Assembly: GCF_014764385.1 (NCBI RefSeq)
Contig: NZ_CP061714.1
Coordinates: forward strand, 682,001 to 746,000
Length of the DNA: 64,000 bases
DNA from: Luteimonas sp. MC1825
Lineage (GTDB): Bacteria > Pseudomonadota > Gammaproteobacteria > Xanthomonadales > Xanthomonadaceae
Reading direction: 5' to 3'
Both the position numbers and the translations under genes were made by a program. Below are positions 10,276 through 27,261 of this stretch, one piece after another; position 1 is the stretch's first letter, and each line of letters begins with the position of its first letter. Under the pieces are notes generated by a model that saw only the letters and a list, made by a program, of their open reading frames with translations, had not been told where the DNA came from and ran no database searches.

Positions 10276-10554
10276 TCAGCGCCTGCGGCGCTTGCCGTTG
10301 ATCATTTCCGCGATGAACAGCAGGATCACCGCGCCGATCAGCGAGGCGATGAAACCGACTTTCTCGCTTTCCCCATACCAGCCCAGCATGCGGCCAACCC
10401 AGCCGGCGAGCAGCGCGCCGACGATGCCCAGCACGATGGTCAGGATGATGCCGATGTTCTGCTTGCCGGGCTTGATCAGGCGCGCGAGCACGCCAACGAC
10501 CAGGCCGACGAGGATGATCCACAGCCAGCTGTCGCCGCCGAATACACCGTCCAT
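10276..10554 (-). CDS. GlsB/YeaQ/YmgE family stress-response membrane protein
   Basis: 92 residues, three predicted transmembrane segments: WLWIILVGLVVGVLARLI, IGIILTIVLGIVGALLAGWV and KVGFIASLIGAVILLFIA. The ARLIKPG and GIVGALLAGW blocks are typical of this transglycosylase-associated family, whose molecular role is unknown and which often responds to stress. The basic C-terminus (NGKRRRR) fits a cytoplasmic end. AGGGGAG lies about 5 bases before the ATG. It stands alone between two minus-strand or convergent units. Confidence 0.88.
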   Translation of the reverse strand: MDGVFGGDSWLWIILVGLVVGVLARLIKPGKQNIGIILTIVLGIVGALLAGWVGRMLGWYGESEKVGFIASLIGAVILLFIAEMINGKRRRR

Positions 10555-12693: not shown

Positions 12694-12844
12694 GCCGCGG
12701 GGCAAGCACCGGCCGCATCGCAGGGAGGCGATGTGGCGGCGGCGGGGACTGCCACGCCCCGCTGGCAGGCGCCTGCCTGCATGCGTTCCGCCACCCGGCC
12801 GCAGGGACGCGCGCCGGGCGGCGGCCAGTACCGGCGCTGCGCTC

Positions 12845-12850
12845 TACACT
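12845..12850 (+). promoter_or_regulatory. Candidate -10 element for a leaderless HutD transcript
   Basis: TACACT ends six bases before ATG 12857. A start point seven bases downstream of the -10 would fall on the A of the ATG. No good -35 and no Shine-Dalgarno sequence is present, so this is a weak prediction. Confidence 0.3.
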
Positions 12851-12856
12851 GCGCGG

Positions 12857-13486
12857 ATGCAGCCTCCAGCAGCACACGCGCGGCATCTTCCCGCCAACGA
12901 ATACCGCCGCGTGCGCTGGCACAACGGCGGCGGCTGGACGCGGGAGATCCATGCCGAGGGGCGTGGAGGCGGCGGGCCCGGCGAGGACTGGGACTGGCGC
13001 TTGTCGATCGCCGAGATCACCGCAGACGGCGACTTCTCGCGCCTGGCGGGGGTCGAGCGCGAACAGGTGCTGCTGTCCGGCGACGGGCTGCAGCTGCGGT
13101 TCGACGGCAACGAGTCCGGCGCGCACGCGCTGCTGCCGCCACATGGCCGCTTGCGCTTCTCCGGCGGGCGCGCGGCGCACTGCAAGCTGGTTGGCATGCG
13201 CGCGGAGGTCTTCAACCTGATGTGGCGCCCGCAGGCGGTGGCCGCGCAGTTGTGGCATCGGCCGCTGGTGGGCGCCATGGTTGTGTTCGTCGATCCGGGC
13301 ACGTGCTGGGCGGCGTACCTGGTGGCCGGCCAGGCGACGGTCTCCGGCAGCGTGGCGTCGCCGCTGCGGCTGGCCATGGGCGACACCGTCCTGCTCGGCG
13401 CAGGCGCGCAGCGCTGCCGGCATGTGCTGGACGGTGGCGGCGAGGTGTTGCTGGTGCGGTTGGAGCCGGCCGCCGACGCTCAGTAG
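12857..13486 (+). CDS. HutD/Ves family protein
   Basis: 209 residues with the family signature RRVRWHNGGGWTREI near the N-terminus, DWDWRLSIAEI, and FDGNESGAHALL. HutD/Ves proteins are double cupins linked to histidine utilisation in some species and to stress in E. coli. No hut gene is nearby, so the role here is open. No ribosome-binding site is visible. A TACACT element ends six bases before the ATG, which could give a leaderless mRNA. The 3' end overlaps the flavoprotein gene on the other strand by seven bases. Confidence 0.82.
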   Translation: MQPPAAHARHLPANEYRRVRWHNGGGWTREIHAEGRGGGGPGEDWDWRLSIAEITADGDFSRLAGVEREQVLLSGDGLQLRFDGNESGAHALLPPHGRLRFSGGRAAHCKLVGMRAEVFNLMWRPQAVAAQLWHRPLVGAMVVFVDPGTCWAAYLVAGQATVSGSVASPLRLAMGDTVLLGAGAQRCRHVLDGGGEVLLVRLEPAADAQ

Positions 13487-15246
13487 ACGTCGCGGCGATA
13501 GCGTCCGTCGGCAAGCATGGCGTCCACGCCGGCGCGGCCGATGACGTCGCGCAACACGCCATCCACCCCGGGTGCCATGCCGCGCAGGCTGCCGCAGACG
13601 TACACCGCGGCACCTTCGTCGACCCACGCGCGCAGCCGGGCGGCCTGGGCCCGCAGCGCATCCTGCACATGGCCGTCATGCACACCGGCGCGCCCATCCG
13701 CCGGCGCGCCTGCCGGCAGCGTGGCCGTGGCGCCGGTGCTGTCGCGCGAGAACGCCAGGTCGAGGCGCGCCAGCTCGCCTGCGGCGAGCCACGCGGCGAT
13801 CCGGTCGCCGAAATGGAAATCGCGATCGGCGTGGCGTTCGCCGAACAGCAGCCAGTTGCGCCGTGCGCCGGCGGCGATGCGCTCGGCAAGATGCGCACGC
13901 AGGCCGGCGATGCCGGTGCCGTTGCCGATCAACAGCATCGGGCGCTGCGTGTCGGGGCCGCGGAAGTTGCGGTTGGCGCGGATCCGCAGCGCGACCGGGC
14001 CACCGACCGCGACGTGGTCGCAGAGCCAGCCGCTGCCGATGCCGGGCGTGCCGTCGGGGCGCAGCATCCGCCGCAGCAGCAGGCGCATGTCGCCTTCGGA
14101 GGGGATCGAGGCGATCGAGTATTCGCGATGCGGGAGTCGCTGCAGCACGGCCGCCAGCGCGGCGGCGGCGAGGCCGGACGCGGCGGCTGGATCTGGCAGG
14201 TGCGAGCGGCCCAGCACGTCGGCAAGCGACGCCGTGCCGGCCGCATCCGCCATCCCGGCGCTGTCCGCCACGCCCGGGGTCTCCGGCACGCGCACCTGCG
14301 TCGCGGGGTCGAGTCGCAGCTGCGCCAGCAGGGCGGTGACCGCCGCGGGCGACTGGCGCGGCCCGATTTCGGCGATGTCGCCGGCGCGCCACGACGCCGC
14401 CGCGCCGGCGGGCGGCGCGAGCCGGAGTTCGTACACGCCCGCGCCCGGGCTGCCGGGATTGAGTTCGACGCGCCCGGCCAGGGTCCAGGCCTGGTATTCG
14501 GCCGGCGACCAGTCCGGGAGCCCGGTGGCCTCGGTGGCGACACCCAGGTGGTGCTGCCAGTGGCGCAGCGCGGCGGGATCGCCGTTGTCGACTTCGACCA
14601 GGTCGAACAGGGCCTCGCCACCGGCATCGCGCAGCCAGCGCTCCAGCTGATGCCCGAACCCGCAGTAGTGGCGATAGCTGCGATCGCCCAGTGCGAGCAC
14701 GGCGTACTGCAGGCCTGGCAAGAGCGTCCCCGGGCGCATGACGTCGCGGACGAAGGCCAGCGCGGGATCCGGCGGGTCGCCTTCGCCGGTGGTGCTGGCG
14801 ATGAACAGTACGCGCCGCGCCGCCGCCAGCATCGCCAGGTCGACCTGCGCCAGTCCGCGCGGCCGCGCGCGCTGGCCGGCGCTGCGCAGGGCGGCCGTCG
14901 TGCGAGCCGCGACGTCCTCCGCATATCCCGTCTGGCTGGCGTGCAGCACCAGCCAGTCGCTGTCGCCCGCGTTTTCACCGGACGCGGCATCGGCGGCCTC
15001 GCGCGTGCGCGCCGCGCGGCGCGCGCGCCACAGGATTCCCGCGCTGCCGGTAACCCAGGCCACGGCCACGAGTGCGGCCAACCAGCTGCGTGCCGGGGGC
15101 GGCGCCGCGATCCACCAGCGGTCGCCGTGCAGCGGCAGCAGCGCCGCCGCGGTGCCGGCCAATGCGAACAGCGCAAGCCAGTTGCCGACGCGGGCACGGT
15201 CGCGCGGCGCGGCCCGTGCAGCCCGCGATTCGCCTGGCGCACTCAC
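13480..15246 (-). CDS. Membrane-anchored flavodoxin/ferredoxin-NADP reductase-like flavoprotein
   Basis: 588 residues. Two N-terminal transmembrane segments (about 22-40 and 52-72) precede a flavodoxin domain (about 95-240) with LHASQTGYAEDVA and IASTTGEGDPPD for FMN. An FAD-binding domain with REYSIASIPSEG and an NADPH-binding domain with LLIGNGTGIAGLRAHL follow. The chain ends in the typical aromatic tail RYRRDVY. This is the layout of CysJ or cytochrome P450 reductase tethered to the membrane. In this operon it probably passes NADPH electrons to the membrane. It overlaps the apbE stop by four bases and is the last gene of the iron operon. Often annotated as sulfite reductase alpha subunit, which is unlikely here. 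Confidence 0.85.
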   Translation of the reverse strand: MSAPGESRAARAAPRDRARVGNWLALFALAGTAAALLPLHGDRWWIAAPPPARSWLAALVAVAWVTGSAGILWRARRAARTREAADAASGENAGDSDWLVLHASQTGYAEDVAARTTAALRSAGQRARPRGLAQVDLAMLAAARRVLFIASTTGEGDPPDPALAFVRDVMRPGTLLPGLQYAVLALGDRSYRHYCGFGHQLERWLRDAGGEALFDLVEVDNGDPAALRHWQHHLGVATEATGLPDWSPAEYQAWTLAGRVELNPGSPGAGVYELRLAPPAGAAASWRAGDIAEIGPRQSPAAVTALLAQLRLDPATQVRVPETPGVADSAGMADAAGTASLADVLGRSHLPDPAAASGLAAAALAAVLQRLPHREYSIASIPSEGDMRLLLRRMLRPDGTPGIGSGWLCDHVAVGGPVALRIRANRNFRGPDTQRPMLLIGNGTGIAGLRAHLAERIAAGARRNWLLFGERHADRDFHFGDRIAAWLAAGELARLDLAFSRDSTGATATLPAGAPADGRAGVHDGHVQDALRAQAARLRAWVDEGAAVYVCGSLRGMAPGVDGVLRDVIGRAGVDAMLADGRYRRDVY

Positions 15247-16286
15247 CCTGCGAGCGCTGCGTGGAAGCTGTCGGTCGCGTGGACGCGCACCGCGGTGCCG
15301 CCGACGGCACCGGCGTGGCAGGCGACATCGGCGGCGGACTGATCGCCAGCGCGGACGACGAAGCGCGCGGCGATGCCGCGCGCCTGTGCGAACTCGAAGC
15401 CGGCCTCGGCACCCATCACCGTCAGCGCGGTCGCCCAGGCGTCGGCATGCAGGGCGTCATCGGCCAGTACGGTGACCGCGGCCGGTGCATGCGCCACCGG
15501 CGCACCGCTGCGCGGATCGATGCTGTGGGCGAACACGCGGCCGTCGTGCGCGAAGCGATGCCAGTGGTCGCCCGACGTGGCGACGGCGCGGCCGTCGAGC
15601 GCGAGCACGCAGGGGGGCAGGGCCTCGCAGTCGTCGCCTTCGTCAGGCCAGGCTTCGACCAGCACGCGCCAGGGATTGCCATCGGGCTTGCTGCCATAGC
15701 CGTAGAGCTCGCCTCCGACCTCGACCAAAGCGGCGCGGACACCCTGCGCGCGCAGCCACGCGGCCACCGCGTCCACGCCATGCCCCTTTGCAATGCCCGA
15801 CAGGTCGAGCGCCACGCCGCCGGGTTGCAGCGCGCGCTGGCCGGCGCCGTCCAGCGTGACGCGCTGCCAGCCGACGCGTGCACGCGCGGCAGCGACCGCG
15901 GCAGCCTCCGGGATGCGGCCGGCGCCGCCCGCCGGGCCGAAGCCCCACAGGTCGACCAGCGGTGCGACGGTTGGATCACAGGCGCCGTCGCTGGCTTCGG
16001 CGACGCGCAGCGATGCGCGCAGCACGTCGAAAAACGGCTGCGGCAGCCTCTGCCAGCTGCCGGCCGGCGCACGGTTGTAGCGGCACAGGTCAGAGCCGGA
16101 TTCCCAGCTGCTCATCTGCGCCACCACCCGTTCGAGCGTTGCCTGGATGCCCGCGTGCAGGGGATAGAGGTCGGAAGCGCCCGCCGCCGCCAGGCTGACC
16201 TGCCAGCGCGTGCCCATGCTCTCGCCGCCCAGCGCGTGGACCACCCGTCCTGACGCGGGTGCGGCAACGGTGCCCGCCGCCCCCAT
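15243..16286 (-). CDS. apbE: FAD:protein FMN transferase
   Basis: 347 residues of the ApbE family. Motifs are LGGESMGTRWQV, ALDLSGIAKGHGVDAV, VEVGGELYGYG, FAHSIDPRSG and ADAWATALTVMG (metal site). ApbE moves FMN from FAD onto a Ser/Thr of a target protein, usually outside the cytoplasm. At the chosen start, which overlaps the upstream stop (TAATG), there is no signal peptide or lipobox. The longer upstream frame offers none either. This is odd for a family normally exported. The most likely partner is the DUF2271 protein two genes upstream, which carries an ApbE-type motif. Confidence 0.9.
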   Translation of the reverse strand: MGAAGTVAAPASGRVVHALGGESMGTRWQVSLAAAGASDLYPLHAGIQATLERVVAQMSSWESGSDLCRYNRAPAGSWQRLPQPFFDVLRASLRVAEASDGACDPTVAPLVDLWGFGPAGGAGRIPEAAAVAAARARVGWQRVTLDGAGQRALQPGGVALDLSGIAKGHGVDAVAAWLRAQGVRAALVEVGGELYGYGSKPDGNPWRVLVEAWPDEGDDCEALPPCVLALDGRAVATSGDHWHRFAHDGRVFAHSIDPRSGAPVAHAPAAVTVLADDALHADAWATALTVMGAEAGFEFAQARGIAARFVVRAGDQSAADVACHAGAVGGTAVRVHATDSFHAALAG

Positions 16287-17092
16287 TACTGCGGCAGCAC
16301 TTCGAGCGTGGCGACATAGCCGAGGCGGCGCGCGCCGGCCTGCGGCAGGCTCGGCTTGTCGTCTTCCAGCGAAGTCTCCAGCCAGTACATGCCGGCCTGC
16401 GGCCAAGTCACCGCGAACTCGCCGTTGGCGTCGGTGGTCACCAGGATCTCTTCCTGCGCGTTGCGGTAGCGCGTGCCGCCGCGGGTGATCTCGAACGCGA
16501 TGCCGGCGGCGGGCTGGCCGTCGGCGAGCATGCGAAAGCGCGCCTCTTCACCGGCGAACAGGTCATTGGGATGGGTGATGGCCACCAGCTCCAGGCCCTG
16601 GTTCGACGGCTGCAGCGCGGTGTCGTTGGGCGAACCGTTGGTGACGAAGGTTTCCACGCGGCTCACGCTCTGCGTGACCTTGAGCTCCGGCGCGTCCTTC
16701 GGCACTTCGGTGCCGAAGCTCGCGGCGTTGCCGCGCCAGCGCTTCGGCTTGCCGTCTTCCTGCCAGCTCGCGGTGAGCCCCGCGTTGACCACGGCGATGC
16801 GGTAGGTGCCCTGCTGCGTGAGTTCCAGGTCGAACACGCTGCGGAACTTGCCTGTGGCCGGATTCTGCGCCTCGGCGCGGCTGCCGTCGGGCGCGGTGAT
16901 CGCCAGGTTCCCGGTGCGCAGCGGCACGTGGTTGAAATGGAACAGGTCGTTGGACACCGCGGCGTCCACGGTGATCCACGGGTTGGTGCCGGCAATCACC
17001 GTCTGCGAGGGCTGCAGCCAGGCCTTGTGGGCATGGGCGGCGAGCGGCAGGGCGGCGGCGAGCGCGAGGGCAAGCGCGAGGGTGTTCTTCAT
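16286..17092 (-). CDS. Periplasmic DUF4198 family protein
   Basis: 268 residues with a signal peptide ending near AAHAHK, then [14 protein letters not shown], which is the typical start of the DUF4198 family (related to periplasmic nickel/cobalt-handling NikM-like proteins). Two immunoglobulin-like regions follow: one with [11 protein letters not shown] and a C-terminal one with [12 protein letters not shown] and [17 protein letters not shown]. Histidines near the mature N-terminus and in FHFNH could bind metal. GGAGACC precedes the ATG. It lies between the DUF2271 and apbE genes. Exact role unknown; periplasmic metal binding or scaffolding is an inference. Confidence 0.85.
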
Positions 17093-17132
17093 CGGGACGG
17101 TCTCCGGGATCTCGGGAATGGGGTGGGGTGGC

Positions 17133-17648
17133 TCAGGGCTTGATGGCCAGCGCCACGGCGCCGAGCTCGCTGGTGCCCTGTGCCTTCCCCGACTGCGCCG
17201 ACGTCGCCGGCCACTGGAAGGGAATCTTCAGCAGTTCGCGCCCGCCGACTTCGCGCGCGGCCTCGACCACCAGCGTGTAGCGGCCGGGCTTGAGCACGGC
17301 CAGGCGCGGATCGCGGGAATCGATCTTGACTGCGTGGCGGCCGGCGGGGCGCGTCGGCCCGGTCACGCCATCTACCGGCACATCGAGCGTGCGGCCGGCC
17401 TTGCGCCACCACTGGCGCAGGTCGGGCAGCCACTTGGTGCCGTGGCCTTCGTCGGTGTCCTTCATCATGTACCAGGCCGCGAGCGTGGCCGCGGCCTTGC
17501 CATCGGCGCCTTCCACGAACACCGCGACGTAGGGGCGGTGGTATTCGGCGACCCTGATCTGCGGGATCTCGATGTCGACGGTCAGTTCCGCCGCGTGCAG
17601 CGGCATCGCGAGCAGGCCGCCGAGGGCGATGGTTAGGGTCATGCGCAT
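17133..17648 (-). CDS. Periplasmic DUF2271 protein with a probable flavinylation site
   Basis: 171 residues with a Sec-type signal peptide cleaved after LHAA. The body matches DUF2271: [37 protein letters not shown] and [17 protein letters not shown]. The segment VDGVTGPT (residues 92-99) follows the pattern Asp-x-x-Ser/Thr-Gly-x-Ser/Thr that ApbE modifies, which would place FMN on Thr99. With ApbE two genes downstream, this protein is the best candidate for a covalently bound FMN carrier in the periplasm. Two possible ATG codons lie six bases apart (17648 and 17642); GAGG fits the first. Confidence 0.85.
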
Positions 17649-17671
17649 GGGAAGGCCTCGTGCAATCGGGA

Positions 17672-18322
17672 TCAGTGGATGAAGAGCAGCGCGAGCAACA
17701 CCGGGACCACGAGCCCCAGCCCGACCCATGGCCAGGTTCCGGGCCGCTGGCGCGCGTGCATCTGCAGCAGGAACAGCCCGGTGACGGTGAACACGATGCA
17801 GGCGATCGCGAACACGTCGATGAACCAGCCCCACGCGGGCCCGGCGTTGCGGCCCTTGTGCAGGTCGTTGAGGTAGGAGATCCAGCCGCGGTCGGTGCGC
17901 TCGTACTCGATCTCGCCGCTGGCCTTGTCGATTGCAAGCCAGGCATCGCGGCCCGGACCCGGCAGCGACAGGTAGACCTCGTCCGCAGACCATTCTGCTT
18001 CGCGGCCGGCGACCGGCATGTCGAGTTCATCGCCCAGCCACGCGGCGAGCCCGGCGGGCAATGCCGCCTTGCCGTCTTCCTGCGTGGCGAGCAGCGGCAA
18101 GAGCGTCGACGGCAGCGCCACCTGGCGGTTGTCCACCGTCGGGCTGCCCTCGATGCTGCCGGCGTGGTTGAGCGTGATGCCGGTGACCGCGAACAGCAGC
18201 ATGCCGACCAGGCACGCCGCCGAACTGATCCAGTGCCACTGGTGCAGCGTGCGCAGCCAGAAGCCGCGGCGCTGGGCGTGGGCGATGGAGCGTTCGGCGG
18301 GTGCGGTCATCGGCGGTCGCAT
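17672..18322 (-). CDS. PepSY-associated transmembrane protein
   Basis: 216 residues. The first membrane span carries [20 protein letters not shown], then [12 protein letters not shown] periplasmic PepSY-like loop follows, then [20 protein letters not shown] with a second span, and a third hydrophobic span at the C-terminus. The conserved histidines (LHQWHW, NH, DLH) suit haem or flavin electron transfer, and related PepSY proteins reduce ferrisiderophores in the periplasm. The start at 18322 overlaps the stop of the TonB receptor gene (ATGA), which argues for translational coupling; ATG 18310 is an alternative. Confidence 0.85.
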
Positions 18323-20748
18323 CAGAAGCGGTAGTTCACCGACAGCCACAGGCTGCGGCGCTTTTCCTTGACCGCATAGTCGTCGACGCAGGTGTATTCG
18401 GCCTGGCTGGTGGCCAGCAGGCAGCTCTGCGAAACGAAGTCCTTGTCGGTCAGGTTGTTGATGCGCGCGTTGAAGGTGAGCGCATCGGTGGCCTTCCAGT
18501 TGGCGCCGAGGTGGAACACGGTGTAGTTGTCGTAATGGCGCACGGTGCGCTCGGACACGCTGGTGACGCCGGGCAGCAGGGTGTCGCGGTAGCGGTCATA
18601 GCGGCCTTCGCCGATCAACGAGAGTGTCAGCGCGTCGGTTGCGCGCCAGCCCAGGTTGGCGTTGAGCATGTGCTCGGCCGGGTTGCCCGCGATCGGATTG
18701 CCGCGGTCGTCGCCGCTGGTCTGCTCGCTCTTCGTCCAGGTGTAGTTGCCGCGCACCAGCCAGCGCTCGGACAGGTCCACGCGGCCCGCCAGTTCCACGC
18801 CGCGCGTCTCGGCGGACGCGATGTTGATCGACTGGCTGAAGGTGTTGTAGCCGAGCGCCGCCCAGCCGGGGCCGATGTCCACGCAGTAGCCGCCTCCCGC
18901 AGGGGCCACTTCGCAGTTGGGGATGTTGTCGCCGCTGGCGATCTTGTCCTCGAAGCGGTTGAAGAACAGCGTGGCGTCGAAGCCGTAGCGGCCGGCGTCG
19001 TGGTACACGGCCAGTTCGTAGTTGCGGCTGGTCTCGGGCTGCAGGTCCGGGCTGCCCACGAACGGGCTCACGCCCTGGCCGCCGAAGCCGGTGATGCCGG
19101 GGAACAGCTGGTCCGGGCGCGGCGTCTTGTAACCGGTGCTCACGCCGCCCTTGACCGTCCAGCGCGCGTTGGCGGCCCACACCAGGTAGGCGCGCGGGCT
19201 GACCTGGCTGCCGAACATGTTGTGGCGGTCGTAGCGCACGCCGAGGGTGGCGGTGAGCCGGTCGGTCAGAGCCCAGTTGTCCTCGGCGAACAGCGCCCAC
19301 TGGCGATGGGTCTGGGTGGTGCCGTCGCGGAAGCCGGCGCCGTCCATGCCGAACACGCCGTCCTCCATGTCGGTGTCGTTGTACTGGCCGCCGACCGTGA
19401 CCTGGTGGTCGCCGAAGCCCATGTCGAGGCGGGTGTCGAGCACATGGCCGTCGAGCTCCATCACGCGCAGCGGCCGCGGCAGGAACGCCTCGAGCCGCGC
19501 GCGCTCCTCGGCGGTCAGGCCGCTCGAGGCGATGCCAGCCGCGCCGGTGCCGTTGTTGCAGTACGCGGCCTGGGCGCGTCGCGCGCAGACATCGTTCCAC
19601 AGGTCCTGCAGCTCGCCGCGCTCGGCGATGGTCAGCGGCAGTGAACGGCCGAGGTTGCTGGTGGTATGCCGCGTCAGGCTGGTCTGGCTGGTGCCGAACG
19701 CCCAGCGGCCGACGTGGGTCAGCGCGAGCTGGTCACGCTCGTAGCGCTGGTACGGCGTGTAGCCGACGCGCGGCTGCACCACGCGGCGGCTGCTGCCGTC
19801 GGCGAGCGTCGCGTTGCCGCTGCGCCACAGGCTGTCGATGCCGTCGAGCGTGCCGGTCTGGCCGCGGGTGTTGTCGTGCTTCTGGCGCGCGATGTCGTAG
19901 TCGAGCCACAGGTCGTGGTTTTCATTGGCGGTCAGCGACAGGCGGATGCCGGAGTTCCAGCTGGTGTTGGCGACCTGCTTGCCGCCGCCACCAAAGCCCA
20001 GGGTGCGCTCCCAAAGGCTGCCGTCGGGCAGCGGCAGCGGATCCCATTCGGGCATCGACTCGTCGATGTCGTACCAGCTGCCGCGCACGGTGAGTCCCAG
20101 CACGTCCTTCACCAGCGGGCCGCTGAGGTACACGTCCGTGGTGCGCGCATCGCCGAACTCGTCCTCCTGCTGCAGGGTGAAGCCCTGGGTGAAGGAGCCG
20201 GTCCATTCCCGGCCGATGCGACGGGTGATGATGTTGATCACGCCCCCCATGGCGTCGGAGCCGTACAGCGTGGACATCGGCCCGCGCACCACTTCGATGC
20301 GGTCGATCGCGTCCAGCGGCGGCATGAAGCTGAACTGCCCGCCGCCGAAGTTGTTGGGATACAGCTGGCCGACGTTGCTCTGCCGGCGGCCGTCGATCAG
20401 CACCAGCGTGTACTCCGACGGCAGGCCACGCATGCTGATGCTGCCCTGGCCGTTCTTGTCGGTGGTTTCCATGCCCACGTCGATGCCCTCGACGTCGCGC
20501 AGCGCGTCGACCAGGGTGGTGTAGGGGCGCGCGGCAAGTTCCTCGCGGGTGATGACGCTGATGCTGGCCGGCGCTTCGGTGAGCTTCTGCTCGAAGCCGG
20601 TCGCGGTCACCACGACGCGGTCGAGGTCCACCGGGTCACCGACGGCGTCCGTTGCGGCGTACAGGGCAGGGGAGGAGAGGATTGCCGAGAGGGCGAGGAC
20701 AAGCGGGACGAGGCGCGGACGGGCGCGCGTGAAGGGCTGCGGTTGCAT
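18322..20748 (-). CDS. TonB-dependent outer-membrane receptor (FepA/CirA type)
   Basis: 808 residues. A signal peptide (ending ALYA) is followed by the TonB box region DRVVVTATG and a plug domain with [43 protein letters not shown] and [27 protein letters not shown] 22-strand barrel follows, ending in a C-terminal Phe (VNYRF). It is a ferric-siderophore type receptor, closest in feel to FepA/CirA. It is the second gene of the iron operon, 75 bases after the first receptor, and overlaps the PepSY gene. Two cysteine-containing loops are present in the barrel ([11 protein letters not shown] and [12 protein letters not shown]). Ligand unknown. Confidence 0.92.
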
Positions 20749-20823
20749 GGAGTCTCTGGATGGAGGATGCCGGAGTGCCTTGACTGGCTCTCATGTGCCT
20801 GGGTGCAGGCGTCTGTCGCGCGG

Positions 20824-22953
20824 TCAGAACGTCAGGCGCAGGCCGACGTACCAGGCGCGCGGCGTACCCGGGCTGATGTTGTTGTTGTTGTGGGCCGAAG
20901 CGAAGTGCTCGCGGTCGGTCAGGTTCTCGACGTTGAGCTGGAGCCGCAGGCGCGCGCTGACGCGATAGAACGCCGCGGCATCGACACGGGTGTAGCCGGG
21001 CACGACCACCGCGTTGTCGGCGGCCGCATACATGTCGTCGCGGTGCACGACGCCCAGGCCGATGCCGAAATCGGGCGTCACGTCATACCGGTTCCACAGC
21101 GACACCGTATGCCGGGGCAGGTTGGCCAGGTCGCGGCGATCCACGCGGTTCTCGCCGTCCTGCCAGGCGTAGCCACCCATCACCTGCCAGCGCTCGGTGA
21201 CGTTGCCGGCGATGCCCAGCTCGAGCCCCTCGCTGCGCTGGCCGTCGACGAGGATCGAGGTGGGGGCATCGGGGTTGGTGACCGGGTCGTAGGCCGGGTT
21301 GGCGACCGCCACGTTGGTGCGGTCGAGGCGATAGGCGGCGGCGGTCAGCGCCAGCCCGGGGCGGATATCCCACTTCACGCCCACCTCCTTGTTGCGGAAC
21401 TGTTCCGGATCCAGGGCGCGGTTGTCGGCATTGAGCGAGGACAGCTGGTCGCCGGAGCGCGGCACGTGGGTGACCGAATAGCTCGCGTACAGCGATACCG
21501 TTTCGGCTGGCTTGTAGACCAGGCCGGCGCGCGGCGACAGCAGGTTGTCCTCGGCGCTGAGCCGCTCGCCGTTACGGTGGTTGCGCAGCTCCATCTCGAA
21601 GCGGTCCAGGCGCAGCCCGAGCACCGCCTGCCAATGCGGCGAGAACTCGATCTGGTCCTGCAGGTAGAGCGCGGAGGCCTTGGCCACGCTGTGGTTGTCG
21701 GCATCGCTCGCGCTCTGCGCGAACCCGATGGGCCCGCGGTAGCGCGGGTCGTCCAGCGGCACGCAGAACGAGCTGGTCACCGTCGGCGTCCCGGGCTGGC
21801 AGCTGCTGTTGGCCGGGAAGATCCCGGTCTGGCGGAAGGTGTCGGTGTCCTGTCGACCCAGTTCGACACCGGCGAGCAGGGCGTGGGTGGTGCCACCGGC
21901 CTGGACGGTAAAGCCGAGGTCGGTGCGGTTGAACAGGTTTTCGCGGTCGGTGCGGTGGTTGTAGGCACCCAGCGAAACAAGGTCGCCGCGCAGGCTGCCG
22001 GGAAACACGTTCTGGTAGAACTTGTCGTAGACCGCGTAGCGGGTGGCGTTGCGCAGCCAGGCGCCGCCGGCGAAGTCGTGCTGCAGGACCGCATCGAACG
22101 CGTTGACCCGCGCCCACACCGGGCTCAGCTCGGGGCTGCCAAAGAAGGTCTCCGGGTCGGTCGCCAGCGGCCGGCCGTCGCGCGAGGGCACGCCGCGATC
22201 GGCGACACGGTCGTCGCGGAAGTGCTCGTAGCCGAAGGTGGCGGTGGTGGCTTCGCCCAGGCGCAGCGCCAGGGTGGGGTTGATGCCATAGCGCGCGACG
22301 GTCATGCCGTCGCGGTAGCTGTCGGAGTCCTCCGCCAAGGCGGTGACCCGGTAGGCCGCGGCGTCGCCGAGCGCCTGGCCCTGGTCGATGGTGAAGCGGC
22401 TGCGGTTCCAGGAGCCTGCCTGGGCGGTGAGTTCGTGGTGCTCGCCCCAGTCCGCCTTGCGGGTGACGCGGTTCAGGACACCGCCGGAACCGCCACGGCC
22501 GAACATCATCGCGTTCGGCCCCTTGAGCGCTTCGACGCGCTCGATGTTGTAGACGTCGCGGATGTACTGCACGTCGTCGCGCAGGCCGTCGACGAAGAAG
22601 TCACCGGTCGAGCTGTTGCCGCGCATCACCGTGGTGTCGCGGTTGCCCTCGCCCTGGGCCATGGTCACGCCGGGCAGGTAGCGGACGGTGTCGGCCAGCG
22701 AGTTCATCCCCTGGTCGAGCATCAGCTCGCGAGTGACGACGCTGATCGCCTGCGGCGTATCGAGCAGTGGAGTGCTGGTGCGGGTGGCGCTGGTGGTCGC
22801 GTCGACGGCGTAGGGCGCAGGGCGCTGGCCGTGAACCTCGATGCGGTCGAGGTCGGTGGGGGTGGACTGCGCCGCAGCCCCACCGGAGGCGTTCGCTGGC
22901 GGGGCAATAGCGGCAAGGAGAGCGACGGACAGGGGGAGCAGCGGATAGCGCAT
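20824..22953 (-). CDS. TonB-dependent siderophore receptor (catecholate type, Fiu-like)
   Basis: 709 residues. A signal peptide (LLPLSVALLAAIAPPANA) leads into a plug with the siderophore-receptor signature TPQAISVVTRELMLDQG, LADTVRYLPGVTMAQGEGNRD, FFVDGLRDDVQYIRDVYNIE and KGPNAMMFGRGGSGGVLNRVT. The barrel ends in LRLTF. This is the Fiu/BfrH group. ATG 22953 is chosen because the signal peptide begins there; the open frame continues 24 codons upstream into the Fur box region. It is the first gene behind the Fur box and probably leads the seven-gene operon down to 13480. Confidence 0.93.
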   Translation of the reverse strand: MRYPLLPLSVALLAAIAPPANASGGAAAQSTPTDLDRIEVHGQRPAPYAVDATTSATRTSTPLLDTPQAISVVTRELMLDQGMNSLADTVRYLPGVTMAQGEGNRDTTVMRGNSSTGDFFVDGLRDDVQYIRDVYNIERVEALKGPNAMMFGRGGSGGVLNRVTRKADWGEHHELTAQAGSWNRSRFTIDQGQALGDAAAYRVTALAEDSDSYRDGMTVARYGINPTLALRLGEATTATFGYEHFRDDRVADRGVPSRDGRPLATDPETFFGSPELSPVWARVNAFDAVLQHDFAGGAWLRNATRYAVYDKFYQNVFPGSLRGDLVSLGAYNHRTDRENLFNRTDLGFTVQAGGTTHALLAGVELGRQDTDTFRQTGIFPANSSCQPGTPTVTSSFCVPLDDPRYRGPIGFAQSASDADNHSVAKASALYLQDQIEFSPHWQAVLGLRLDRFEMELRNHRNGERLSAEDNLLSPRAGLVYKPAETVSLYASYSVTHVPRSGDQLSSLNADNRALDPEQFRNKEVGVKWDIRPGLALTAAAYRLDRTNVAVANPAYDPVTNPDAPTSILVDGQRSEGLELGIAGNVTERWQVMGGYAWQDGENRVDRRDLANLPRHTVSLWNRYDVTPDFGIGLGVVHRDDMYAAADNAVVVPGYTRVDAAAFYRVSARLRLQLNVENLTDREHFASAHNNNNISPGTPRAWYVGLRLTF

Positions 22954-22991
22954 CAGGAGGCTCTTCAGGACTTGGACCGGGACCGGATGCG

Positions 22992-23022
22992 AATGGTAAT
23001 GAGAATGATTGGCATTTGTAAA
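22992..23022 (-). promoter_or_regulatory. Fur box overlapping the iron-operon promoter
   Basis: On the minus strand the sequence AATCATTCTCATTACCATT (about 22992-23010) is a good match to the repeated NATWAT pattern of Fur boxes. It overlaps a possible sigma-70 promoter, TTTACA (23017-23022) and TACCAT (22993-22998) with an 18-base spacer. Iron-bound Fur would block polymerase. The box lies about 40 bases before the first TonB receptor start. Confidence 0.82.
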
Positions 23023-23066: not shown

Positions 23067-23399
23067 TCAGTCGCGGTCGTCGCGGCTCCAGATCCCGGCG
23101 TCGTCGCGCTTCACCGGGAACTTGGCCACCGGCTCATAGGCCGGCGCACACAGCGCTCGGCCGTCACGCACGTCGAACTTCGCGCCGTGCAGGACGCATT
23201 CGATGGTGGCGTCGGCGGCATCCAGCGGGCCCGCGGAGAGCTCGAACTCCTCGTGGCTGCACTGGTCTTCCAGCGCGTACAGGTCGCCATCCAGGTTCAC
23301 GACCAGGATCGGCGTACCGGTCACCTCGTCGAATACGGTGCGCATTTCGCCCGGCAGCAGCTCGCCGGTGGCGCACACGAAGGTCCAGGTCTCGCTCAC
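23067..23399 (-). CDS. Rieske-type [2Fe-2S] ferredoxin
   Basis: 110 residues. The cluster-binding pattern is CSHEEF and then CVLHGAKFD, that is Cys-x-His and Cys-x-x-His spaced as in Rieske ferredoxins of the BphF/NirD type. No signal peptide or membrane anchor is seen, so it is a soluble cytoplasmic protein. The start is GTG and overlaps the stop of the acetyltransferase gene by four bases (GTGA). As the last gene of the suf operon it may be an iron-sulfur acceptor or a redox partner of an oxygenase encoded elsewhere. Confidence 0.88.
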   Translation of the reverse strand: MSETWTFVCATGELLPGEMRTVFDEVTGTPILVVNLDGDLYALEDQCSHEEFELSAGPLDAADATIECVLHGAKFDVRDGRALCAPAYEPVAKFPVKRDDAGIWSRDDRD

Positions 23400-23932
23400 A
23401 GCGCCTTCTCCAGGTATTCGAAGCGCAGGTCGTCGCGCCGGGGGATGCCGAAGCGGCTATCGCCATACGGGAACGCGCTGTGCTCGCCGGTGCGCCGGTA
23501 GCCGCGGCGCTCGTACCACGCGATCAGCTCCTCGCGGACATCGATCACCGTCATCCGCATTGTCGCCAGGCCCCAGTGCTCGCGTGCGATGCGCTCGCAC
23601 TCCGCCAGCAGCGCGCGGCCGATGCCGCTGCCCTGGTGCCCCGGCGCGACGGCGAACATGCCGAAATAGCCGCGCCCGTGGTCGTCGGCGACGTGGGCGC
23701 AGGCCAGCAAGCGGCCCGCCTGTTCGGCCAGCACCACCAGGCTGCGCGGCCGGGCGATGTCGCCGCGCAGCACGTCGGCGTCGATGCGGTCACCGTCGAG
23801 CAGGTCGGCTTCGGTGGTCCAGCCGGCGCGGCTGGCGTCGCCACGATAGGCGGAAGTCACCAGGGCAACGAGCGCGTCGATGTCGTCGTTGCTGGCGGGT
23901 CGGTAATTCGGCGCGGGCGCGGTGGTGTCCAT
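23396..23932 (-). CDS. GNAT family N-acetyltransferase
   Basis: 178 residues of the GNAT fold. The acetyl-CoA site is GMFAVAPGHQGSGIGRALLAECE, followed by ARE, MTVIDVREELIAWYERRGYRR and FPYGD. The target amine is unknown. It begins 46 bases after sufS and overlaps the Rieske gene by four bases, so it is very probably co-transcribed with the suf genes. A role in iron-sulfur biology is only suggested by position. Confidence 0.87.
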   Translation of the reverse strand: MDTTAPAPNYRPASNDDIDALVALVTSAYRGDASRAGWTTEADLLDGDRIDADVLRGDIARPRSLVVLAEQAGRLLACAHVADDHGRGYFGMFAVAPGHQGSGIGRALLAECERIAREHWGLATMRMTVIDVREELIAWYERRGYRRTGEHSAFPYGDSRFGIPRRDDLRFEYLEKAL

Positions 23933-23978
23933 GCCGCCATTTTGGCAGGCCGGCCGGGCCATGGGCGCGCCGGCCCGC

Positions 23979-25226
23979 TCAGGCCAGCAGGCGGCGGACC
24001 TTGCCGAGCGCGGCCACGAAGCCCTCGATTTCGGCGTGCGTGTTGTAGAACGCCAGCGATGCGCGGCAGGTGGCGGTGACGCCCAGCCATTCCAGCAGCG
24101 GGTGCGCGCAGTGCTGGCCGGAGCGGATGGCCACGCCTTCGAGATCGAGCAGGGTGGCCAGGTCGTGCGCATGCACGCCGTCGACCACGAACGACACCAC
24201 CGCGGCCTTGCCGGGCGCGGTGCCAAGGATGCGCAGGCCGTCGACCTTGCCCAGCGCCTCGTTGAAGTGCGCCAGCAGGTCCTGCTCGCGCGCCTCCACG
24301 TTGGCCATGCCGAGCGCGTCCAGGTAGTCGACCGCCGCGCCCAGGCCGATGAAGCCGGCGATGTTGGGCGTGCCGGCCTCGAACCTGCGCGGCGGGTCGG
24401 CGAACAGCGTGCCGTCCAGGCGCACCTCGGTGATCATTTCGCCGCCGCCGAGGAAGGGCGGCATGGCGGCCAGGTGCTCGCGTCGCGCCCACAGCGCGCC
24501 CGTGCCGGTCGGTCCGCACATCTTGTGTCCGGTGAAGGCGTAGAAATCGCAGCCGATGGCGGCGATGTCGACCGCACGGTGCGGCAAGGCCTGCGAACCG
24601 TCGACCACGGTGGTGATGCCGCGGCGCCGCGCTTCGCGGCAGATGTCGGCCACCGGATTGACCGTGCCGAGCACGTTGCTGACGTGGGTGACGGCCAGCA
24701 GCTTGACGGCGCCGGTCATCTTGGCGCGCAGCATGTCGAGGTCGAGGCTGCCGTCGGGCAGCAGCTCCACGACCTCGATGCGCGCGCCGGTGCGCTGCGC
24801 CACCAGCTGCCAGGGCACGATGTTGGCGTGGTGCTCCATGCGCGTGAGCAGGATGACGTCGTCAGGGCCCAACCGCGGCAGCGCCCACGAGTACGCCACC
24901 ATGTTGATCGCGAACGTGGTGCCGCTGCACAGCACCAGGTCGTCCGCCCGCACGTTGGTGAAGCGCGCGATCCTGCGCCGCGCGCCTTCATACGCCTCGG
25001 TCGCCTCGCTGCCCAGCTGGTGCACGGCGCGGCTGACGTTGGCGTTGTGGTGGCGATAGAACGCGTCGACCGCGTCGATCACCGCGGCCGGCTTCTGGCC
25101 GGTGTTCGCGGAATCAAAATAGATCAGCGGTTTGCCGTGCACCTCGCGGGCGAGCAGCGGGAAATCGGCGCGTACCGCCGCCCAGTCGACCGGGTTCGCC
25201 GCACTCGCCAGCGCGGGCTCGCTCAT
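23979..25226 (-). CDS. sufS: SufS-type cysteine desulfurase
   Basis: 415 residues, group II cysteine desulfurase. DSANTGQKP near the N-terminus, HANIVPWQLV, the PLP lysine in FTGHKMCGPTGTGALW, and the active cysteine in IRSGQHCAHPLL are all present. It takes sulfur from cysteine as a persulfide for the SufBCD scaffold. It overlaps sufD by four bases. SufS enzymes normally need SufE or SufU to pass the sulfur on, and neither is encoded next to it. Confidence 0.95.
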   Translation of the reverse strand: MSEPALASAANPVDWAAVRADFPLLAREVHGKPLIYFDSANTGQKPAAVIDAVDAFYRHHNANVSRAVHQLGSEATEAYEGARRRIARFTNVRADDLVLCSGTTFAINMVAYSWALPRLGPDDVILLTRMEHHANIVPWQLVAQRTGARIEVVELLPDGSLDLDMLRAKMTGAVKLLAVTHVSNVLGTVNPVADICREARRRGITTVVDGSQALPHRAVDIAAIGCDFYAFTGHKMCGPTGTGALWARREHLAAMPPFLGGGEMITEVRLDGTLFADPPRRFEAGTPNIAGFIGLGAAVDYLDALGMANVEAREQDLLAHFNEALGKVDGLRILGTAPGKAAVVSFVVDGVHAHDLATLLDLEGVAIRSGQHCAHPLLEWLGVTATCRASLAFYNTHAEIEGFVAALGKVRRLLA

Positions 25227-26494
25227 GCGAGCGCCTGCCTGTCCACCGCCCGGTCCAGTACCGCCTCCACCAGTGTGCGCAGCGCCGGCGTGGTCACCAC
25301 GGCCAGCAGCGGCTCGCGCACGAACGCGGCGGTCAGCAGTGCGCGCGCCTCGGGTTCGGCCAGGCCGCGCGAGCGCAGGTAGAACATCGCGTCGGGATCG
25401 AGCTGGCCGACGGTGGCGCCGTGCGCGGCCTGGACTTCGTCGGCATGGATCACCAGCACCGGCTGGGTGTCGATCTCGGCGGTGTCGGACAGCAGCAGGT
25501 TCTTGTTGGACAGGCGGGCGTCGCTGCCGTCGGCGCCTTCTCGGATCTCGATGCCGCCATGGAACACGCAGCGTCCGCGGCCCGCCGCCATGCCGCGCCA
25601 GCCGAGCTGGCTGCGCGTATCGCGGGCGATGTGCCGGATGCCGAGGCGGGTGTCGAGGTGGCGGCGTCCGGAGGCCAGCATCACGCCGTTGGCGACGAGC
25701 TCGGCGTTCTCGCCTTCCAGGCGCACGTTGAGCTCATGGCGCGACAGGCCGGCGCCGAGTTCGAGGTCGAGGCGGCGATAGGTGGCATCGCGGGCCAGCA
25801 CCGCGTCGGTGCGCGTGAACAGCGTGGCCTTCGCCGCCTCGTCCTGGATACGCGCGTGGCGCAGCACGGCACCGCTGGCGATGTGGACATGGCTCAGCGC
25901 ATTGCCGAGATGGGCGTGCTCGCCGCCGGCGATGTGGTGCTCGATCACCGTGGCGCTGGCGCCGCGGCGCAGCTCGATGAAGTGGCGCGAATGCCAGGCC
26001 AGGTCGCCCTCGGCCGGCGCGCCCACGAACACCAGGTGGACCGGCGCGGGGATCGCGACGCCCTCGGCCACGCGCAGCACCGCGCCGTCATCGGCGAGCG
26101 CGGCGTTGAGGCGCGCGAACACCTCGTCTGCGCGGGCGTAGGACTTGTCGAGGAAGTTGCTCTCGCGCGGGTCGGGATCGGCCAGCGCGCCGGACAGCGG
26201 CAGCAGCCGCGCGCCGTCGGGAAGGCCGGTCAGGTCAGAGGCCGCTGCGAGGTAGCGGCCGTTGGCGAACACCAGCCGCGGCGCCGGGATGTCAGCGAGC
26301 AGCGCCGGATCGATCGCGGCGTGGAGCAGCGCCACCGGCGAGAAGCCGCGGCGTTCGAGCGCGCGCAGCGAGGTGTACTTCCAGGCTTCGCTGCGCGCGC
26401 CAGGCAGGCCGTCGCGCAGCGCGGCATCGAGCGCCGCGCGACGCGTGGCCGCGCCGCTGAAGCCGGCGGCAAGCGAGTCGAGCAGGGTGGCCAT
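25223..26494 (-). CDS. sufD: Fe-S cluster assembly protein SufD
   Basis: 423 residues. It has the SufB/SufD beta-helix core with HVHIASGAVLRHARIQDEA, FHGGIEIREGADGSDARLSNKNLLLSDTAEIDTQPVLVIHADEVQAAHGATVGQLD (quoted in parts: SNKNLLLS, IHADEV, HGATVG) and the C-terminal YLRSRGLAEPEAR helix region. It pairs with SufB and SufC to build the cluster scaffold. ATG 26494 overlaps the sufC stop by four bases. An N-terminal extension in the open frame is not conserved. Confidence 0.93.
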   Translation of the reverse strand: MATLLDSLAAGFSGAATRRAALDAALRDGLPGARSEAWKYTSLRALERRGFSPVALLHAAIDPALLADIPAPRLVFANGRYLAAASDLTGLPDGARLLPLSGALADPDPRESNFLDKSYARADEVFARLNAALADDGAVLRVAEGVAIPAPVHLVFVGAPAEGDLAWHSRHFIELRRGASATVIEHHIAGGEHAHLGNALSHVHIASGAVLRHARIQDEAAKATLFTRTDAVLARDATYRRLDLELGAGLSRHELNVRLEGENAELVANGVMLASGRRHLDTRLGIRHIARDTRSQLGWRGMAAGRGRCVFHGGIEIREGADGSDARLSNKNLLLSDTAEIDTQPVLVIHADEVQAAHGATVGQLDPDAMFYLRSRGLAEPEARALLTAAFVREPLLAVVTTPALRTLVEAVLDRAVDRQALA

Positions 26495-27261
26495 CAGGCG
26501 ACGGCCTCCGGCGCCACGCGGTCCTTGATCCACTCGTAGCCCTGGGCTTCGAGCTGCAGCGCCAGCTCGGGGCCGCCGCTCTGCACGATGCGGCCGTCGG
26601 CGAGCACGTGCACCACGTCAGGCTTGATGTAGTCGAGCAGGCGCTGGTAGTGGGTGATCACGAGGAAGGCGCGGTCAAGCGAGCGCAGCGCGTTGACGCC
26701 GTCGGCCACCTGGCGCAGCGCATCGATGTCGAGGCCGGAGTCGGTCTCGTCCAGGATCGCCAGCTTCGGCTGCAGCACCGCCATCTGGAAGATCTCGTTG
26801 CGCTTCTTTTCGCCGCCGCTGAAGCCTTCGTTGACGCCGCGGTGCAGCAGCTGGTCGTCGAGGTGCAGCACGCCCAGCTTCTCGCGCACGATCTTCAGGA
26901 ACTGCATCGAATCGAGCTCGGCTTCGCCGCGTGCGCGGCGCTGGGCGTTGAGCGCGCTGCGCAGGAAGTAGGTGTTGTTCACGCCCGGGATTTCCACCGG
27001 GTACTGGAACGCGAGGAACACGCCGGCAGCGGCGCGCGCCTCCGGGTCCAGAGCGAGCAGGTCGGCGCCTTCGAACGCGACCGTGCCGGCGGTGACGTCA
27101 TAGCCTGCGCGTCCGGCGACGATATTGCCGAGCGTCGACTTGCCGGCGCCGTTGGGACCCATCAGCGCGTGCACTTCTCCGGGCTTCACTTCGAGCGAAA
27201 GGCCCTTGAGGATTTCACGGCCGCCGGGGATGGAGGCGTGGAGGTTGTCGATCTTGAGCAT
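26494..27261 (-). CDS. sufC: Fe-S cluster assembly ATPase SufC
   Basis: 255 residues, ABC ATPase. Walker A is GPNGAGKST, the signature motif is EGFSGGEKKRNE, and Walker B is LAILDETDSGLDID, followed by VITHYQRLL. These are the usual SufC features. It drives conformational change in SufBD during cluster assembly in the cytosol. It starts 39 bases after sufB. Confidence 0.96.
   Translation of the reverse strand: MLKIDNLHASIPGGREILKGLSLEVKPGEVHALMGPNGAGKSTLGNIVAGRAGYDVTAGTVAFEGADLLALDPEARAAAGVFLAFQYPVEIPGVNNTYFLRSALNAQRRARGEAELDSMQFLKIVREKLGVLHLDDQLLHRGVNEGFSGGEKKRNEIFQMAVLQPKLAILDETDSGLDIDALRQVADGVNALRSLDRAFLVITHYQRLLDYIKPDVVHVLADGRIVQSGGPELALQLEAQGYEWIKDRVAPEAVA

Follow-up and report, generated by a model that had tools for sequence, protein, structure and literature searches.

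A Conserved, Predicted Fur-Regulated Operon of Luteimonas sp. MC1825 Encoding a Probable Periplasmic Ferric Reductase, a Presumed Proline-Type Flavin Site and an ApbE without a Signal Peptide

Introduction

Periplasmic reduction is one bacterial route to siderophore iron that does not require import of the siderophore into the cytosol. In Pseudomonas, reduction of ferric siderophores is known or presumed for the PepSY_TM proteins FoxB, FpvG and PiuB. Meheust et al. (PMC8238504) described PepSY-like systems, in which a PepSY transmembrane (TM) protein (PF03929 or PF16357) is clustered with ApbE, FMN_bind, DUF2271 or DUF3570 genes, together with DUF4198 and sometimes TonB receptors or an NAD-binding domain; a role in iron was proposed. 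In the present study, we analyzed an operon of Luteimonas sp. MC1825 that falls within this definition. It lies on the minus strand of a 64,000-nt stretch (contig NZ_CP061714.1, positions 682,001 to 746,000; hereafter the window) and encodes two TonB-dependent receptors (TBDT1 and TBDT2), a PepSY protein, a DUF2271 protein, a DUF4198 protein, ApbE and a diflavin reductase. The results indicated that it is a conserved, Fur-controlled reductive iron-uptake operon of the published kind; its products probably form a periplasmic ferric reductase that supplies FeoB.

The five genes from PepSY to the reductase occur in the same order in Caulobacter crescentus (CC3059-3063; CCNA_03155-03159). There they are repressed by Fur, which binds their promoter; 12-51-fold rises, lacZ fusions and a gel shift with purified Fur were reported, and feoAB and a riboflavin operon were co-repressed by Fur in the same study (PMC3751524). 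A role in fitness with ethylenediaminetetraacetic acid (EDTA) has also been described (PMC12004947). As listed there, the five Caulobacter genes come without a receptor, whereas two receptors lead the Luteimonas operon. The predicted Fur regulon of Stenotrophomonas maltophilia contains pepSY, a TonB receptor, piuC, sel1 and fhuA in neighbouring locus tags, in the order seen in many of our relatives; this list is a prediction, compared by table rather than by sequence, and the Luteimonas operon has neither piuC nor sel1 (PMC6240677). Given the Caulobacter Fur data and the Stenotrophomonas prediction, it was known before this work that the gene set is under iron control. New in the present analysis are the unusual apparent location of ApbE, a flavin acceptor site in its Pro form, and the joining of DUF4198 metal work to an iron operon; loading before export and Fe(II) capture are a reading of these points, not proof.

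Gene Set and Conservation

Domain searches, with starts placed from the sequence, recovered behind the Fur box all seven minus-strand genes and domains that a preliminary description of this DNA had named, and its statement that overlaps or short gaps tie the last six genes together was borne out by the junctions. From TBDT1 to the reductase, these were 75 nt, a 1-nt overlap (TGATG), 23 nt, 40 nt, a 1-nt overlap (TAATG) and a 4-nt overlap (GTGA) for the chosen starts; other start choices would shift the gaps slightly. The start of TBDT1 was best placed at its ATG (22953) because a longer GTG frame from 23025 would take in the Fur box.

Of 119 family genomes, 58 contained DUF2271. The relative loci comprised 59 from this sample and 80 named ones (139 in total); 133 had a DUF2271 match of at least 90 bits, and 122 were distinct. 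They were chosen by similarity to the DUF2271 of the window, and the sample is biased to close kin. The core order PepSY-DUF2271-DUF4198-ApbE-reductase was observed in 114 of the 122 relatives (111 plain and three with an extra copy), and a TonB receptor was present in 106. Across the phylum, a sample of 398 genomes included 70 with the DUF2271 domain. Outside the family of the window, there were 61 over-cut-off matches, and 60 of these loci were fetched. Our own profile detected DUF2271 in 47 of them, with DUF4198 (45), PepSY (43), a TonB receptor (31), the reductase (30) and ApbE (29) nearby. It missed DUF2271 in the other 13 loci, three of which were scanned with Pfam and carried PepSY_TM, flavodoxin and NAD-binding domains on a single polypeptide. 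The reductase, ApbE and DUF2271 genes therefore do occur with receptors (a TonB receptor in 106 of 122 relatives and near DUF2271 in 31 of 47 phylum loci), a point on which the preliminary description had made its reading depend. Of the seven-gene order whose conservation it suggested checking, the five core genes were conserved, and the receptors appeared exchangeable.

Fur Box and Regulation

The Fur box upstream of TBDT1 (Table 1) had no match in 100 shuffles of the window. It was the only site with at most two mismatches in the 2.9-Mb genome and one of two with at most three, counts that are flattered because the 19-bp consensus was picked after the site had been seen. The backward control pattern of this consensus had no genome site. 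Compared with the E. coli 19-mer, the best site matched at 14 of 19 positions. The other site with at most three mismatches was located at genome positions 1837536-1837554, directly 5' of feoA-feoB; the frame behind it is one that we take, by recognition, to be feoA, followed by feoB. FeoB was present in 51 of 58 family genomes with DUF2271 versus 45 of 61 without it, a weak association uncorrected for kinship.

Among the relatives, 113 of 122 could be scored, and nine were left out (first gene too close to the end of the stretch, or none). When at least 13 of 19 positions had to match, with N counted as a match, a Fur-like site was found near the first gene in 82 of the 113 and none in 31, while 3 of 565 composition-shuffled control stretches were positive. 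The Fur box at the promoter would thus place the operon in the Fur regulon, as predicted from sequence.

Table 1. Positions of the operon genes and sites in the window.
Feature	Position	Strand	Remarks
Fur box AATGAGAATGATTGGCATT	22998-23016		44 nt upstream of TBDT1 ATG; 2 mismatches to AATGAGAATNATTCTCATT
TBDT1, TonB-dependent siderophore receptor 1	20824-22953	minus	ATG start; signal peptide; PF00593, PF07715
TBDT2, TonB-dependent receptor 2	18322-20748	minus	CirA/CfrA/IreA-like, under each cut-off
PepSY_TM_like_2 membrane protein	17672-18322	minus	PF16357 290 bits, PF03929 38 bits; 3 TM helices
DUF2271, predicted periplasmic carrier	17133-17648	minus	signal peptide; PF10029 167 bits
Presumed flavin acceptor site DGVTGPT	17352-17372	minus	acceptor Thr codon 17354-17352; from sequence
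DUF4198, predicted periplasmic protein	16286-17092	minus	PF10670 201 bits
ApbE (FAD:protein FMN transferase)	15243-16286	minus	no signal peptide; PF02424 264 bits
Membrane-anchored diflavin reductase	13480-15246	minus	GTG start; PF00258, PF00175; CysJ/CPR structure matches

Proposed Route of Iron Reduction

We propose a Fur-repressed route of reductive iron uptake, which we consider likely as a whole. In this route, ferric chelates would enter the periplasm through the receptors. The anchored cytosolic diflavin protein would pass electrons from NAD(P)H through flavin adenine dinucleotide (FAD) and flavin mononucleotide (FMN) to the PepSY protein, whose conserved His residues would hold haem and move the electrons across the membrane. 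PepSY would then reduce the covalent FMN on the exported DUF2271, and this FMN would reduce the ferric chelate. The freed Fe(II) would be held by the N-terminal-His metal site of DUF4198 before entry via FeoB. The ApbE without a signal would load FMN on DUF2271; in the simplest version, this takes place in the cytosol, while the preprotein is still unfolded and has yet to be exported by Sec. The operon would probably serve to pass electrons from the cytosol to the periplasm and free iron from captured chelates. What the analysis showed were the genes and their order, the Fur box and its conservation, the acceptor motif, the signal peptides and their absence (by hydropathy), the DUF4198 fold (by model) and the box at feoAB. 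The gene set, gene order and Fur box behind the electron path of the preliminary description were confirmed; we infer its electron order and substrate, as that description did, together with haem, flavinylation and Fe(II) as the metal of DUF4198.

Flavin Site of DUF2271

Meheust et al. 2021 (PMC8238504) showed flavinylation of DUF2271 at [S/T]GA[S/T]. The DUF2271 of the window departed from the canonical ApbE site D-x-x-[S/T]-G-A-[S/T], with TGPT in which Ala is replaced by Pro. The GP form was found in 98 of 123 rows (window included), and the acceptor Thr was present in all 123; the GP count includes locus L138, which had DGITGPT. In the 47 phylum loci, the sites were GAT (24), SAT (10), GPT (6), SPT (1), AAT (1) and SAS (1), and the motif was unrecognised in four. 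As written, the acceptor motif matched 117 of 123 DUF2271 rows; elsewhere, it matched a single ApbE row (of 118) and a single reductase row (of 121), and it was absent from the PepSY, DUF4198 and receptor rows. A review of ApbE counts the Ala as part of the motif and gives about half flavinylation for an Ala-to-Val change; the word proline is absent from its main text. No report of the Pro form was seen in the literature covered, in which no search was aimed at the Pro form alone. In a separate observation, ApbE-DUF2271 fusions were recognized by our own profiles in four loci (L251, L252, L254 and L255), two of them confirmed with Pfam, and the acceptor motif was unrecognised in three of the four.

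The prevalence of GP, a departure from the tested motif, could mean that DUF2271 is unflavinylated in this clade and acts as a non-flavin carrier or scaffold, with ApbE serving another cytosolic protein; Klebsiella is known to have a cytosolic ApbE whose target is also cytosolic. We regard this as unlikely, given that the acceptor Thr was retained throughout and ApbE was retained in the operon in 117 of 122 relatives. The genome contained one DUF2271, one ApbE, one PepSY_TM protein and FeoB, and, as a further point against this reading, no FMN_bind protein; NqrB-type and DUF3570 substrates were not searched.

Location of ApbE

The start of ApbE, in the TAATG overlap with DUF4198, was 20 residues ahead of the first conserved ApbE motif. 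The triad Ser239/His255/Asp283 was conserved, so that the protein has both PF02424 and the Asp-Ser-His set of an FMN transferase; residues were numbered from the codon before the ATG, and the triad followed the residues named for Vibrio in a review of ApbE, matched by order and not by structure. Signal peptides were scored by the 10-residue hydropathy maximum over any in-frame start, not by SignalP. No in-frame start gave ApbE a signal peptide (maximum 1.07 versus 2.18 for the DUF2271 signal), and it thus lacked the N-terminal signal peptide of a secreted or lipoprotein ApbE. In a PepSY-like system, at least one flavinylation gene carries a signal peptide; by hydropathy, DUF2271 supplied it here.

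The ApbE rows numbered 118 with the window included, and typing by site, possible for 116 of them, gave 94 P-type and 22 Ala-type rows. None of the 94 P-type rows (window included) had an ApbE signal by hydropathy, and 11 of the 22 Ala-type rows had one; DUF2271 scored at least 1.8 in every Ala-type row and in 90 of the P-type rows. The ApbE scores of the family left a gap between a low group (top 1.88) and a high group (bottom 2.47). Of 36 separate ApbE frames from the phylum loci, 23 scored below 1.7, four at 1.7-2.2 and two above 2.2, while seven were unscorable (five with no start codon in reach and two without an anchor). We make no statistical claim that the Pro site and the missing ApbE signal co-vary, as the tree contained only two changes of one trait and three of the other.

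According to Meheust et al., a signal is required on only one flavinylation gene per cluster, and in the DUF2271 pair that they tested, ApbE carried one (PMC8238504). The main-text passages of that report discuss neither a TGPT site nor an ApbE without a signal, the two points in which the Luteimonas operon differs. Judging from its sequence, FMN may be attached to DUF2271 in the cytosol, before export; what is new is the pairing of a cytosolic ApbE with a substrate that is exported. The fuller version, in which the signal-less ApbE would load the flavin inside the cell on unfolded, Sec-bound DUF2271, the carrier would be exported ready-made, and DUF4198 would receive the Fe(II) and pass it on to FeoB, is tentative, and we give it somewhat less than an even chance. 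The published model offers another explanation, in which the same reductase operates with an ApbE that enters the periplasm along an unrecognised path and attaches flavin there to DUF2271 that has already folded. DUF2271 flavinylation has been described as extracytosolic (PMC8238504), half of the Ala-type relatives have an ApbE signal, and in Salmonella a cytosolic ApbE form did not work, the periplasmic location being essential. Against this stand the 94 P-type rows without an ApbE signal from any in-frame start; hydropathy is a crude measure, yet it leaves the gap in the family scores. A periplasmic ApbE thus appeared improbable here. Should cytosolic loading be true, no FAD would be needed in the periplasm for this class of operon, which could be tested with a single gene pair. 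Outside the family, ApbE proteins that lack a clear signal often start with a short Pro-rich, RVLIP-like peptide, possibly for docking (L176, L177, L182, L210, L223 and L242).

PepSY Protein and Diflavin Reductase

The PepSY protein had three TM helices in 216-225 aa, with PF03929 matched only over its second half; its AlphaFold2 model had a predicted local distance difference test score of 84.9 and a predicted template-modelling score of 0.68. Six His residues were conserved (numbered from the GTG at 18349): H39, H62, H164 and H225 in 121 of 121 relatives, H36 in 116 and H198 in 117. These residues may hold haem. FoxB and FpvG have two PepSY domains between four TM helices, whereas the Luteimonas protein is half that size, and its reductase and flavin carrier are proteins of their own. 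No direct match to FoxB was obtained in PDB sequence searches with PepSY, DUF2271 and DUF4198. Since a permease role was earlier proposed for related Alteromonas proteins, the PepSY protein could also be a siderophore permease. The FoxB reductase structure and later work favour reduction, the three TM helices carry invariant His residues, and PepSY is fused to a diflavin reductase in some loci, which makes a permease highly improbable.

The reductase contained two TM helices, a flavodoxin domain, the FAD motif REYS, an NAD(P)H domain and a C-terminal Tyr. It matched CysJ chain 6efv with an E value of 1e-41, as a diflavin protein of the CysJ/CPR type; among Pfam domains, none for FAD binding scored in it.

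DUF4198

The predicted mature N-terminus of DUF4198 was a near-invariant His (codon 17029-17027). Its model matched the Ni-binding IsDUF4198 (PDB 9GCB) and the metal-binding Zcp (9MHM), and the Pfam match (PF10670), the mature His and the modelled fold together suggested an N-terminal-His metalloprotein. PDB sequence searches with DUF4198 gave no direct match to 9GCB, and two profile searches of PDB matched Zcp. The PDB sequence table labels chains of 9mhi-9mho as phosphoribosylglycinamide formyltransferase; these are Zcp, with a DUF4198-like fold. The fold and the N-terminal start are shared with both proteins and the N-terminal His with IsDUF4198; the second ligand, His18, is not at that position in Luteimonas, where residue 18 is Trp, and D22 and H153 are other conserved candidates.

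IsDUF4198 binds Ni2+ with a dissociation constant (Kd) of 18 nM, and Zcp structures hold Zn, Cu and Co, so DUF4198 and the reductase might serve a non-iron metal such as nickel, zinc or copper. The Fur boxes of the window and its relatives, the Fur-bound, iron-responsive Caulobacter genes (PMC3751524) and the siderophore type of the receptors argue against this, and we rate it as quite improbable. We propose that DUF4198 captures the released Fe(II). The parts of the operon have so far stood in separate papers, the reductase and flavin carrier in one (PMC8238504) and DUF4198 as a nickel protein in another; read jointly, they give a testable role as Fe(II) receiver.

Receptors and PiuC

TBDT1 scored 278 bits against TIGR01783 (cut-off 223.5) and was Fiu-like, under the Fiu cut-off. 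Its matches in the relatives were 27-34% identical, with one exception of 54% that was placed downstream (L084). TBDT2 had matches in 45 of 122 relatives at 41-74% identity, one of them at 33%. A PiuC dioxygenase was also present in 90 of the 91 relative loci with a TBDT1 match, with PKHD and 2OG-Fe(II) oxygenase domains in the single PiuC locus scanned. The window operon had no piuC gene, and no PiuC was found in the genome at E 0.001, an empty answer obtained with no positive control; the operon thus lacked the dioxygenase adjoining the receptor of PiuA-PiuC (CciT-CciO) pairs. The low identity of TBDT1 in relatives and the presence of PiuC there suggested that the receptors are exchangeable and that the reductase is the constant part of the operon. 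In Caulobacter, the receptor CciT is functional only with the dioxygenase CciO (PMC12004947), and joint loss of a PiuA-type receptor and PiuC would fit this dependence. From gene order, we would guess at a link between TBDT2 and a Stenotrophomonas receptor implicated in cefiderocol uptake. In some relatives, a protein that by eye resembles Sel1-repeat proteins was observed between PiuC and PepSY (L036 7400-8284, L042 and L070).

Genomic Surroundings

No FecCD permease scored over the cut-off in the genome. A role of the operon as replacement for a lost FecCD permease was not supported: among the 119 family genomes, FecCD passed the cut-off in just 12 (8 of the 58 with DUF2271 versus 4 of the 61 without). 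A weak FecCD match at window positions 10312-10518 was rejected as a permease relic; it is a 95-aa open reading frame, which presumably encodes a GlsB/YeaQ-like protein.

Two records, one titled Bacillus subtilis (L150) with this proteobacterial operon and a DUF2271 of 68% identity, are probably (L150) or possibly (L175, Rhodopirellula) mislabelled or contaminated. Upstream of the operon, on the same strand (23067-26533), there were sufD- and sufS-like genes and an acetyltransferase, which we take to be such by eye, and a Rieske protein identified by Pfam; in the fetched stretches, SufS was found in 77 of 122 relatives and the Rieske protein in 93. Downstream, a HutD-family gene (12740-13486, by Pfam) was convergent with the reductase gene and overlapped its 3' end, and it was found in 94 of the 122 relatives.

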